DNA of 43,510 nt, from positions 1 through 43,510 of the forward strand of contig JAKSPN010000002.1 of assembly GCA_024404755.1 (NCBI GenBank), written 5' to 3'. Below the pieces are notes generated by a model. It saw only the letters and a list, made by a program, of their open reading frames with translations. It ran no database searches and had not been told where the DNA came from. Shown in pieces: positions 26,711-30,065 of this stretch. The translations under genes were made by a program, and so were the position numbers. This DNA comes from Clostridia bacterium (GTDB lineage: Bacteria; Bacillota; Clostridia; Oscillospirales; Acutalibacteraceae). Position 1 is the first letter of the stretch. Each line of letters begins with the position of its first letter.

Positions 26711-27373
26711 TCACTCTACTTTAAGAATTTCCTCGAACACGGCGGTGTGGCGGGAGCCGCAGGGGCGGTCCACGTGGAGACTGCCGAAATACCAATGGTC
26801 GAACGTCACGATGTCTTCCAGCCGATTGAGATAGACGTGCACGCCGCGCAGGCGCGCGTTGTCGCCGCTGCGGGAAAAATAGCCGTTGGTTTTGCCGGAG
26901 GGGGAGTGGGTCGCCATAATATCCACTTTGTTGTCCGCCGCCGCCAAATTTTCGTACCCGCGGGACATCTCGTCGCCGGAGGGCATTTCGCGCTCGGAGT
27001 GGGTGTCGGTGCGGAATTCCCATTCGTTTTCGGCATCGCCGCCGCCGAACGCGAACACGGTTTTGCCCTCGATTTCATAGATTTCACCGCGGTGCAGGTG
27101 GAAAATATTGTCGGCGAGTTTTCCGGCGGGCGCGCCGCCGAATTCCGCTTGTTCCACCGCGTCGAGCAGGGCGTAGTTTTCGTGAACGCCGTCCAAAAAC
27201 AGAACGGTATATTTGCGGCGTTTGAGCCAGTTTAAGAGTTTGTCGTCCCGCTTGTCGCCGTACCACAACACGCCGAAATCGCCGAGCACCAACAACGTGT
27301 CGCCTTTTTTCAGTTTGCGGGTGTGCGCGAGGCGGGACACGTCGCCGTGCAGGTCGCCGGTGAGATACAACAT
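26711..27373 (-). CDS. Metallophosphoesterase with altered GNHE motif
   Basis: A 220-residue calcineurin-like phosphoesterase. Metal-site motifs are seen in order: GDLHGD (D7, H9), LGDFG (D32), DGVHENY (H64) and MATHSPSG. The third motif is normally GNH(E/D); here the Asn that bridges the metals is Val (V63), while His and Glu are kept. The substrate is unknown. The chosen ATG at 27373 is preceded by AGGAGG; a longer frame starting nine codons earlier would begin within the divergent promoter. I saw no good promoter of its own. Confidence 0.82.
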   Translation of the reverse strand: MLYLTGDLHGDVSRLAHTRKLKKGDTLLVLGDFGVLWYGDKRDDKLLNWLKRRKYTVLFLDGVHENYALLDAVEQAEFGGAPAGKLADNIFHLHRGEIYEIEGKTVFAFGGGDAENEWEFRTDTHSEREMPSGDEMSRGYENLAAADNKVDIMATHSPSGKTNGYFSRSGDNARLRGVHVYLNRLEDIVTFDHWYFGSLHVDRPCGSRHTAVFEEILKVE

Positions 27374-27394: not shown

Positions 27395-27423
27395 TTGCAA
27401 TTTGACAAAGGATTTGGTATACT
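27395..27423 (+). promoter_or_regulatory. Promoter of the DacA-like/sortase operon
   Basis: TTGCAA, a 17-bp spacer and TATACT with extended TGG lie 54 bp upstream of the start codon. A TTGACA seven bases further in has no -10 at proper spacing. Confidence 0.62.
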
Positions 27424-27477
27424 ATATCCGTATACGTGTACTTTCCTCTATTATAGGCGAAAAAAGGTGGTTTGTCT

Positions 27478-28884
27478 ATGCGTAAATTGAAAAAAATCGT
27501 CGTTTCGGCGTGCATAGCGGCACTTTTGCTTTGTATGGCGCCGCTTTCGGCGTTGGCGGCGGGGTACGAACTGCCGTCCGACGTGGCGAAAGAGATGAAC
27601 GCCCGCGCCGCGATGACGGTGTATATGGAAGCCTCCGCCCCTGCCGCCGACGGTATCGCGGGCCGGGATTCGGTGTTATACGAAAAAGCGGCGGATACGC
27701 CGCTTGACCCCGCCGCAACGGTGCGCGTAATGGTGGGGTTGTACGCGAAAAAACTGATTGACGACAAAAAGTTAGATATCAACAAAGCCACCGGTATTTA
27801 TACCGAAATGCTCCGCGACAATTATATTTGGGGCACGGGGCTGACCCTCGCCAATATGGAAGCGGGCGAAACGTGGACGGTGAAAGACCTCCTCTCCCTC
27901 TCGATGATTCAAACCGCCGCCGATGCCGCCGTGACGCTTGCCGCGACAACGGCGGGAAGCGTGGATGCGTTTGTGCTCGGGATGAACGAGTATCTCAAAA
28001 CCATCGGCTGCACGAATACCACGCTTGTGAACGTGACGGGACTGGACGACCCGCGCCAAAAAACCACCGCCCGCGATTTGTATATCGCCATGCGGTACGC
28101 GCTGGACGATCCGGTGCTGGAAGAGGCGCTGTCCTCGGCGGAATATACCGTCACGCCGGTCAAGGGCGGCGAGCCGCGCTCGTGGGAGAGCAGTAACTAT
28201 ATGCTCCGCGAGTCGTCGGAATATTATTACGAGCCGATGATTGCCGGCAAAACCGGTGTGTCCGAGATTGACGGCAAGGCGCTGGTATCGCTTTGCGCGA
28301 TTGACAGTTACCGCTATATCACGGTGGTGCTCGGTTGCCCGCTTGAAGACGAGGACGGCGATACCGGCACGCACTATAACGCCACCGAAACGCTGCCGCG
28401 GTGGGCGATGAACAATTTCACCTACCAAACGCTCGTAAAGAAAAATCAGCCGATGACCCGCGCCGACGTCAAACTGTCTTGGACGGTGGATTCGGTCACG
28501 CTCGTCGCCAAGGATACGCTGACAAGCGTGGTGCCGGACGAACTCGATTTGGATACCGTCCGCACCGAAATCAAATTGGACAAAGAATGTTACGAAGCGC
28601 CGATTGACAAAGGGCAGGTGCTCGGTCACGCCACTTTGTATATCCGCGAAGACCAGTCGCTCGGCACGGTGGACCTTGTGGCGAGCGAATCGGTCAAACG
28701 CAGTCTGCTGTTGTTCGTGTGGAGCCGCATTTGCGCGGTGATTACGTCGCCGTGGCTGTGGGGTATGATTGTTATTCTGGTGGTGTTGCTCGTCGCGTAT
28801 ATCGGGCTGGCGATTGCCCACAACCGCGAGAAAAAACGCAACGCCCGCAACCGCTCGAATCGGCGGTATAAACCGATGAAATGA
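27478..28884 (+). CDS. D,D-carboxypeptidase-like protein (peptidase S11 fold) lacking catalytic residues
   Basis: A 468-residue DacA-type protein: signal peptide (MRKLKKIVVSACIAALLLC, cut near residue 25), S11 domain to about residue 290, a beta-rich C-terminal domain (about 320-405), then a transmembrane helix (WGMIVILVVLLVAYIGLAI) and a basic tail. The usual S-x-x-K site aligns with PAATVRVM, so the nucleophile Ser is A80 and the Lys is R83. The S-x-N motif aligns with QTAADAA (T146, A148). Only the third motif, KTG (258-260), is kept. Flanking family blocks such as GCTNTTLVNVTGL and TTARDLYIAMRYAL are well preserved, so it is folded but very likely catalytically dead. It is followed 32 nt later by a sortase B gene. 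Confidence 0.85.
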   Translation: MRKLKKIVVSACIAALLLCMAPLSALAAGYELPSDVAKEMNARAAMTVYMEASAPAADGIAGRDSVLYEKAADTPLDPAATVRVMVGLYAKKLIDDKKLDINKATGIYTEMLRDNYIWGTGLTLANMEAGETWTVKDLLSLSMIQTAADAAVTLAATTAGSVDAFVLGMNEYLKTIGCTNTTLVNVTGLDDPRQKTTARDLYIAMRYALDDPVLEEALSSAEYTVTPVKGGEPRSWESSNYMLRESSEYYYEPMIAGKTGVSEIDGKALVSLCAIDSYRYITVVLGCPLEDEDGDTGTHYNATETLPRWAMNNFTYQTLVKKNQPMTRADVKLSWTVDSVTLVAKDTLTSVVPDELDLDTVRTEIKLDKECYEAPIDKGQVLGHATLYIREDQSLGTVDLVASESVKRSLLLFVWSRICAVITSPWLWGMIVILVVLLVAYIGLAIAHNREKKRNARNRSNRRYKPMK

Positions 28885-28916
28885 TTTTTTGATAAAAAGC
28901 GAAAGGTCGTGGAAAA

Positions 28917-29735
28917 ATGGACGAATGGAACGCGTCTCCCGTGATGCCGACGGGCGGCTATACCAACAAACAACCGAAAAAACCGTGGTGGATTTTGATT
29001 GTCGCCGCGGTGGTCGTTGCGGCGATTGTGGCGGCGGCGCTCGTGCTCGCCAACACCCAAAAACCGGAAGAACCGGAGGTTTCGGTCGTTCCTACGCAGA
29101 AAACGACCATGCAGGTCGAGGACGTGACCCCCACCGTTGCCAAGGTGAAAAACCCCATCGACTTTGCCGCGCTGAAAGCCAAAAACTCCGATTTGTATGC
29201 GTGGATTAAGATGCCGAACACGGTCATCGACTACCCGATTGCCCAAAGCGCGCCCGACGAGGAGGAAGATTTTTATCTCCACCGCGGTGTGGATAAGGAA
29301 TATCTGTTTGAGGGCACGATTTACACCCAAAAATACAACGCCAAGGATTTCTCCGACCCGAACACCATCCTCTACGGGCATTGTATGAAAAACGGTACGA
29401 TGTTCCGCGCGCTGCACGATTTGAAAGTGCAGTCGATGTGGGATTCTACGCCGGAGTTTACGATTTATACCGAGGGGCATATCCTGACCTATCGGATTTT
29501 CTCCGCGTATACCCGCGACGATAAGCATATTTTGGTGCAAAACGGGTTCTTTAAGGACAAAAAGGTGTTTGCGGACTACCTGAAAGACGTGGCGCATCCG
29601 GCGTACGGAATGACCCGCGATTGCAAGCTCACCACCGACAGCCGCATCGTGACGCTCGAAACTTGCGTGACGGCGAACGGCAACACCCGCTTTGTGGTTT
29701 CGGGGGTTTTGGTGAAAGACCAACCGACTTACTGA
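28917..29735 (+). CDS. srtB: Class B sortase
   Basis: Sortases are membrane transpeptidases that anchor proteins to peptidoglycan or build pili. The 272-residue product has a cytoplasmic N-terminus, one transmembrane helix (residues 24-45), a linker, and a class B catalytic domain. Conserved features are the WIKMPNTVIDYPI segment, catalytic H155 in NTILYGHCM, C250 in TLETC, and R258. It follows the DacA-like gene in one operon. No protein with a sorting signal (NPQTN- or LPXTG-like) is in the window, so its substrate is encoded elsewhere. AAAGG precedes the ATG at a somewhat long distance. The promoter of the tRNA cluster follows directly. Confidence 0.94.
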   Translation: MDEWNASPVMPTGGYTNKQPKKPWWILIVAAVVVAAIVAAALVLANTQKPEEPEVSVVPTQKTTMQVEDVTPTVAKVKNPIDFAALKAKNSDLYAWIKMPNTVIDYPIAQSAPDEEEDFYLHRGVDKEYLFEGTIYTQKYNAKDFSDPNTILYGHCMKNGTMFRALHDLKVQSMWDSTPEFTIYTEGHILTYRIFSAYTRDDKHILVQNGFFKDKKVFADYLKDVAHPAYGMTRDCKLTTDSRIVTLETCVTANGNTRFVVSGVLVKDQPTY

Positions 29736-29765
29736 AAATGATTTGAAAAAAATCGAAAATTTTAC

Positions 29766-29794
29766 TTGACAAGTGAGAAACTATACTATATAAT
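29766..29794 (+). promoter_or_regulatory. Promoter of the tRNA-Met/Glu/Val cluster
   Basis: A perfect TTGACA, a 17-bp spacer and a perfect TATAAT lie 33 bp before the first tRNA, as expected for stable RNA. Confidence 0.9.
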
Positions 29795-29826
29795 AAAATG
29801 CGCTGTCCGCCTTGGATAGCGTTTAT

Positions 29827-29903
29827 GGCGGTATAGCTCAGATGGCTAGAGCATGCGGTTCATACCCGCAGTGTCGTTGGTTCGAATCCAATTGCCGCTA
29901 CCA
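29827..29903 (+). tRNA. tRNA-Met (CAT), elongator
   Basis: A complete cloverleaf with encoded CCA. The anticodon loop is TTCATAC on a TGCGG/CCGCA stem. The initiator features (unpaired 1-72, three G-C pairs in the anticodon stem) are absent, and the acceptor stem GGCGGTA/TGCCGCT with G1-U72 matches Firmicutes elongator tRNA-Met. Confidence 0.95.
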
Positions 29904-29907
29904 TTAC

Positions 29908-29983
29908 GGCCCGATGGTCAAGCGGTCTAAGACACCGCCCTTTCACGGCGGTAACACGGGTTCGATTCCCGTTCGGGTCACCA
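29908..29983 (+). tRNA. tRNA-Glu (TTC)
   Basis: A cloverleaf with anticodon loop CTTTCAC on a CCGCC/GGCGG stem, acceptor GGCCCGA/TCGGGTC, T-arm ACGGG-TTCGATT-CCCGT and encoded CCA. It starts 4 nt after tRNA-Met. Confidence 0.95.
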
Positions 29984-29988
29984 TTTTC

Positions 29989-30065
29989 GGGCGTATAGCT
30001 CAGCTGGTTAGAGCGCTTGCTTCACACGCAAGAGGTCAGCGGTTCGAGTCCGTTTACGCCCACCA
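29989..30065 (+). tRNA. tRNA-Val (CAC)
   Basis: A cloverleaf with perfect acceptor GGGCGTA/TACGCCC, anticodon loop TTCACAC on a CTTGC/GCAAG stem, and encoded CCA. It is the last tRNA of the cluster, before a terminator. Confidence 0.95.

Follow-up and report, generated by a model that had tools for sequence, protein, structure and literature searches.

The 43,510-nucleotide stretch of DNA analysed here (the window) encodes, at positions 27478 to 28884 of the forward strand, a 468-residue S11/PBP5-like protein which is probably a pseudo-carboxypeptidase, that is, an ancestral, membrane-anchored S11 D,D-carboxypeptidase that has been kept at its original locus and binds without cutting. From the N to the C terminus the protein is laid out as a signal peptide, an S11 domain, a PBP5_C domain, a C-terminal membrane helix and a basic tail, an assignment that draws on translation, Pfam, alignment, AlphaFold2 and Foldseek. 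Pfam places Peptidase_S11 (PF00768) with an E value of 1.9e-31 and PBP5_C (PF07943, 43.6 bits, E 3.4e-11) at 28417 to 28701, and the membrane helix is predicted at residues 425–463 (28750 to 28866), with the basic tail following it. An AlphaFold2 model built with 27 orthologues has a mean pLDDT of 90 and a pTM of 0.77, and its top Foldseek match is Escherichia coli PBP6 (3itb, E 3.4e-29, TM-score 0.79 on the target), followed by PBP5. By descent and by fold, therefore, the window protein belongs to peptidase family S11, and its PBP5_C domain and predicted anchor are those of a PBP5-type low-mass PBP. A preliminary description of this DNA had stated that the fold-defining blocks and the anchor are kept, and in this regard it is borne out.

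Against this background of retained architecture, the features that define a catalytic D-Ala-D-Ala carboxypeptidase are largely missing. Translation and alignment to PBP6 and PBP5 confirm the earlier reading of the motifs, in which the first has become A80-T-V-R83 instead of S-x-x-K (27715 to 27726), the second T146-A-A148 instead of S-x-N (27913 to 27921), and only the third, K258-T-G, is left (28249 to 28257). In other words, the sequence and the model together confirm a predicted S11/PBP5 fold that lacks the catalytic serine, the lysine and the S-x-N residues. E. coli PBP5/DacA and PBP6/DacC and Streptococcus pneumoniae PBP3 have in common with it the fold, the domain order, the C-terminal anchor, KTG and PBP5_C, but in the window protein the nucleophile, the general base and SxN are replaced, such that an acyl-serine mechanism is impossible; with Ser and Lys gone, the acyl-enzyme cannot form. 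The anchor also differs in kind, since that of E. coli PBP5/6 is amphipathic whereas the window protein has a single membrane-spanning helix with a basic tail. Two further S11 copies in the same genome have SxxK intact, and the trimming reaction itself is therefore probably covered.

The loss is not confined to the window. A profile made from four same-genus orthologues was searched against 300 genomes of the window's family, one of gut-type Clostridia, and gave two score groups, one of 27 genomes above 346 bits and one, containing all others, below 288; in the top group the catalytic residues are lost in every member with a readable motif. Across these 27 sequences, which come from 12 genera and form the main clade used for the tree, position 80 is most often A (16 sequences), otherwise S (5), G (4) or P (2), and position 83 is R in 26, with the SxxK lysine present in one. 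The SxxK serine and lysine never occur together (0/27), the SxN asparagine is absent from all (0/27), its motif reading T/S-A-A/S, and the first residue of the third motif is K in 12 and R, giving an R-T-G type, in 15; no member (0/27) has all five catalytic residues. The near-fixation of R83 and the uniform T/S-A-A/S indicate that the motif change is not due to chance. One genus of the clade reads S-M-M-R at the first motif, and members that keep the serine might conceivably have retained some unusual chemistry. A scan of named genomes yielded 25 similar MAG loci, some of them on contigs already among the 27, from chicken gut, ruminant gut and other sources, Candidatus Avimonas among them.

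In a quick-method tree of 130 rows, from which the motif columns had been left out, all 27 main-clade rows fall together on a single branch with an SH-aLRT of 100 and a stem of 0.70. As judged from alignment and tree, the motif loss is thus old within the main clade and shared by its 12 genera. The small size of the genome from which the window comes (1.3 Mb) could invite the view that the gene is a product of neutral decay, of sequencing error or of mutation in one strain. This can be practically dismissed, and is already refuted for the main clade, because 27 orthologues from 12 genera share the loss and have full-length frames, a retained anchor and low dN/dS. The preliminary description had held that homologues of the same locus keeping SxxK would reduce this copy to a mutated allele; such orthologues do exist in other genera, but the age and breadth of the loss take away the conclusion that would have been drawn from them.

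The dead-clade genes retain all domains and the membrane anchor in full-length frames, and are under purifying selection. Close pairs within the clade mostly have dN/dS values of 0.10–0.17, the highest values, 0.25 and 0.37, coming from two pairs in a single genus, as compared with 0.065–0.13 for pairs of catalytic orthologues. Moreover, about two dozen residues are fixed specifically in the clade (R83, T105-G106, Y108, W133, R199, R206, G257, Y316 and others) at positions where the catalytic relatives either vary or have another residue. Conservation is highest in the S11 domain, which also holds most of these clade-specific residues, while PBP5_C, the membrane helix and the tail are conserved too. 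Taken as a pattern in sequence, this conservation is what one sees in a protein whose function has changed but is still under constraint. Indeed, since catalysis was lost long ago and the protein was nevertheless kept, it must have a job other than cutting, and the earlier proposal that catalytic loss without decay elsewhere reflects a kept non-enzymatic role gains support from the 27 orthologues, their single clade and their low dN/dS.

The same data bear on two other readings of the protein. The first is that the C-terminal half alone matters, PBP5_C and the membrane helix being a protein–protein or membrane module that the S11 domain accompanies as a passive passenger; this would agree with the conservation of PBP5_C, helix and tail, but a passenger would be expected to drift, and the S11 domain is where conservation is strongest, so that we regard this reading as unlikely. 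The second, which is more improbable still, is an altered enzyme whose cleft continues to catalyse some reaction without an acyl-serine. The near invariance of R83 (26/27) and the continued conservation of KTG/RTG and of a T-A-[AS]-D motif might be taken to favour it; against it, no consistent nucleophile is evident at position 80, the SxN asparagine is lost throughout, and the KTG lysine is itself replaced by arginine in more than half of the clade.

The surroundings of the gene connect it to catalytic relatives. Upstream, on the reverse strand at 26711 to 27373, lies a divergent calcineurin-like phosphoesterase; the window copy itself is too diverged to give a Pfam match, and the assignment comes from the orthologue in L049, which matches PF00149 (33.2 bits), and from synteny across the family, in which this gene is a widely shared neighbour of the S11 orthologue. 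A consensus scan places back-to-back sigma-70-like putative promoters of the divergent pair at 27395 to 27478, on both strands (TTGCAA-17-TATACT forward, TAGACA-17-TATAAT reverse). Two sister genomes show no copy of the dead gene, an apparent absence that may come from assembly: in G004 the contig ends at the phosphoesterase, right where the S11 gene would start, and from G005, which is 84% complete, the entire stretch is missing. The back-to-back arrangement of S11 gene and phosphoesterase is found in 16 of the 27 rows inside the main clade and in 76 of 101 outside it, and most of the syntenic S11 genes outside the clade retain S-x-x-K, S-x-N and K-T-G. Of 107 non-clade rows, 88 retain the SxxK serine and lysine and the KTG lysine, many of them with the same divergent phosphoesterase. 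Syntenic catalytic orthologues such as L073, L108 and L110 have the same length and architecture as the window protein, and usually the same phosphoesterase, but keep all three motifs where the window protein keeps KTG only. Since catalytic S11 genes occupy the same place beside the same neighbour, the dead gene is the orthologue of the catalytic gene and not a foreign acquisition.

Of the 101 family orthologues sampled outside the main clade, 17 have lost the SxxK serine or lysine, and the replacements vary (A-L-T-N, S-I-T-V, S-L-N-Y, G-L-L-N, A-F-N-K and others). These losers are scattered over the tree: L120, L124, L128, L157, L166, L172, L187, L198 and L203, together with L075, L078, L112, L143, L167, L171, L168 and L180. 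Several of the scattered losses consist of one MAG each, and the S-to-T change in one row may still leave an active protein. Parsimony on the quick-method tree, which does not distinguish loss from regain, counts at least 13 changes of state, at least six of which are required by branches with strong support; the paralogues that serve as outgroup are catalytic, which favours loss over regain. A single origin of the dead state is rejected, at a cost of 584 log-likelihood units and a p-AU of 1e-45 on a 48-row subset. In the sampled S11 paralogues (DacF-like and a second type), by comparison, the motifs are kept in 34 of 34; for one of these, truncated ahead of the first motif, the verdict refers to the second and third. 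The loss is therefore a property of one orthologue and not of the S11 proteins of these genomes as a whole. It appears from these comparisons that the catalytic machinery has been lost separately in several related lineages too, and, taken together, the scattered losses, the number of changes, the rejection of a single origin and the intact paralogues show that catalysis is dispensable specifically for this orthologue.

Loss of the same kind occurs in other families of the order, in 3 of 26 best-matching S11 genes, where orthology is by best match and not by tree. The three out-of-family losers (L259, L262 and L269) all have the phosphoesterase, which is present in one of the 23 out-of-family genes keeping SxxK. 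Within the family, outside the main clade, phosphoesterase and catalytic loss show no association (Fisher p = 1), and a link between the two inside the family was accordingly rejected.

The role that we favour for the pseudo-carboxypeptidase is that of a protein retained at its ancestral locus after the acyl-serine machinery was lost. Its C-terminal helix would tether it to the outer face of the membrane, where it would bind without cleaving. The likeliest ligands would be pentapeptide stems or lipid II, bound in the former substrate cleft, or else a partner in wall synthesis, contacted via the PBP5_C domain. By such binding it would influence the site or the extent of action of the active carboxypeptidases and synthases. 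The locus has no conserved operon partner that would point to a ligand or partner. Since this orthologue has shed catalysis repeatedly, while the sampled paralogues have all kept their motifs, the catalytic ancestor probably had the binding role already. A wider and more tentative proposition, to which we give somewhat less than even weight, is that in the S11 orthologue of most genomes of the order this old non-catalytic function is the selected one, the carboxypeptidase activity being an option that has been discarded some ten or more times.

Laboratory mutants offer a partial parallel. In E. coli PBP4 S62G and S62A and in Acinetobacter baumannii PBP5/6a S121A the nucleophile has likewise been removed, and the Ser-to-Ala forms of both PBP4 (PMC9166362) and PBP5/6a (PMC13059705) are inactive. 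Inactive PBP4 S62G still reaches midcell, through peptidoglycan binding or protein contacts (PMC9166362), which by analogy may be the same kind of role as we propose for the dead S11 protein. The mutants are artificial and affect a single residue, whereas the loss in the window clade is natural, fixed and spread over several residues. A different use for such a protein would be as a decoy that soaks up beta-lactams or glycopeptides, and low-mass PBPs are reported to be able to serve as decoy targets (PMC10269149); without the serine, though, beta-lactams cannot be trapped covalently, and the genes nearby gave no sign of a resistance context, which makes a decoy very improbable.

Pseudoenzymes are a known kind of protein, and many peptidase families contain non-peptidase homologues. 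Searches of the open-licence literature yielded no description of a PBP5 orthologue that is inactivated in nature, repeatedly and across a whole clade, nor any of natural S11 or PBP pseudoenzymes or of links between S11 proteins and sortases. Low-mass PBPs are usually treated as trimming enzymes with hard-to-explain phenotypes, and a PBP5-like orthologue that is repeatedly free of catalysis and yet constrained is evidence for a second, non-enzymatic role, for the finding of which natural pairs of active and dead orthologues provide the material. Were the wider proposition of an old, selected non-catalytic function true, these genes would amount to a set of separation-of-function mutants, made by nature, in a PBP5-like protein. 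Annotation pipelines will label many of them D-Ala-D-Ala carboxypeptidase, and counts of penicillin-binding proteins taken from genome annotation will be too high relative to the true PBPs of these bacteria.

The gene downstream of the pseudo-carboxypeptidase encodes a class B sortase (28917 to 29735, forward strand). Between the S11 stop codon, whose last base is 28884, and the srtB start codon, an ATG at 28917, lie the 32 nt given in the preliminary description, and the sortase is, as described there, intact: it is full length, PF04203 scores above its cut-off, and the YGH, TLxTC and R catalytic residues are visible, although the full-length TIGR03064 match, at 147.3 bits, lies under the curated cut-off of 153.75. 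The idea originally attached to this adjacency, that the dead protein presents bound pentapeptide or lipid II to the sortase or else protects it, does not fare as well. Sortase profiles run over all fetched loci place a sortase beside the S11 gene in three species only, that of the window and two sisters in its genus, both of which also turn up among the named loci; the class B enzyme is confined to the window species. In the sisters, the interval between the dead gene and a tRNA-Met, tRNA-Glu, tRNA-Val array, which closes the locus in all three (29827 to 30065, forward strand, in the window), carries genes for a small secreted protein, for a class D sortase and for a membrane protein. The interval thus behaves as an exchangeable slot (window 28885–29826; L047 9360–11797; L048 3282–5613).

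In the remaining 11 dead-clade genera no sortase lies in the fetched flanks of the S11 locus, and a PF04203 search finds the sortases of the clade's other genomes on different contigs. Where srtB was sampled elsewhere, it adjoins proteins with SPSTG or SPKTD tails (in several other genera) or other genes, not S11. The downstream flanks fetched for catalytic orthologues measure some 0.4–1.5 kb, so that this adjacency test, strong within the dead clade, has less force outside it. Because the sortase class differs within one genus at one slot, and sortases elsewhere do not sit at the locus, the adjacency is young and exchangeable, whereas the inactivation is far older. The sortase is, in other words, a local neighbour and not the usual partner of the dead S11 protein, which is not a dedicated sortase accessory; a partnership as a general feature is rejected. 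That two sortase classes should have entered one slot in one genus is odd, and a slim chance is therefore left for a link at the level of the genus.

The dead S11 protein was also considered as a sortase substrate and rejected, since inspection by eye reveals no sorting-type motif before the membrane helix and orthologues that lack a sortase end in the same tail. Elsewhere, small secreted proteins with SPSTG or SPKTD tails and a hydrophobic end directly adjoin class B sortases (L205 5984–6511; L207 4339–5028), and are likely to be non-LPxTG sortase substrates. Small secreted proteins of a DINADEQR type, which give no significant Pfam or NCBIfam match, have a C-terminal hydrophobic helix and lie upstream of class D sortases (L005 2988–3584; L004 770–1357).
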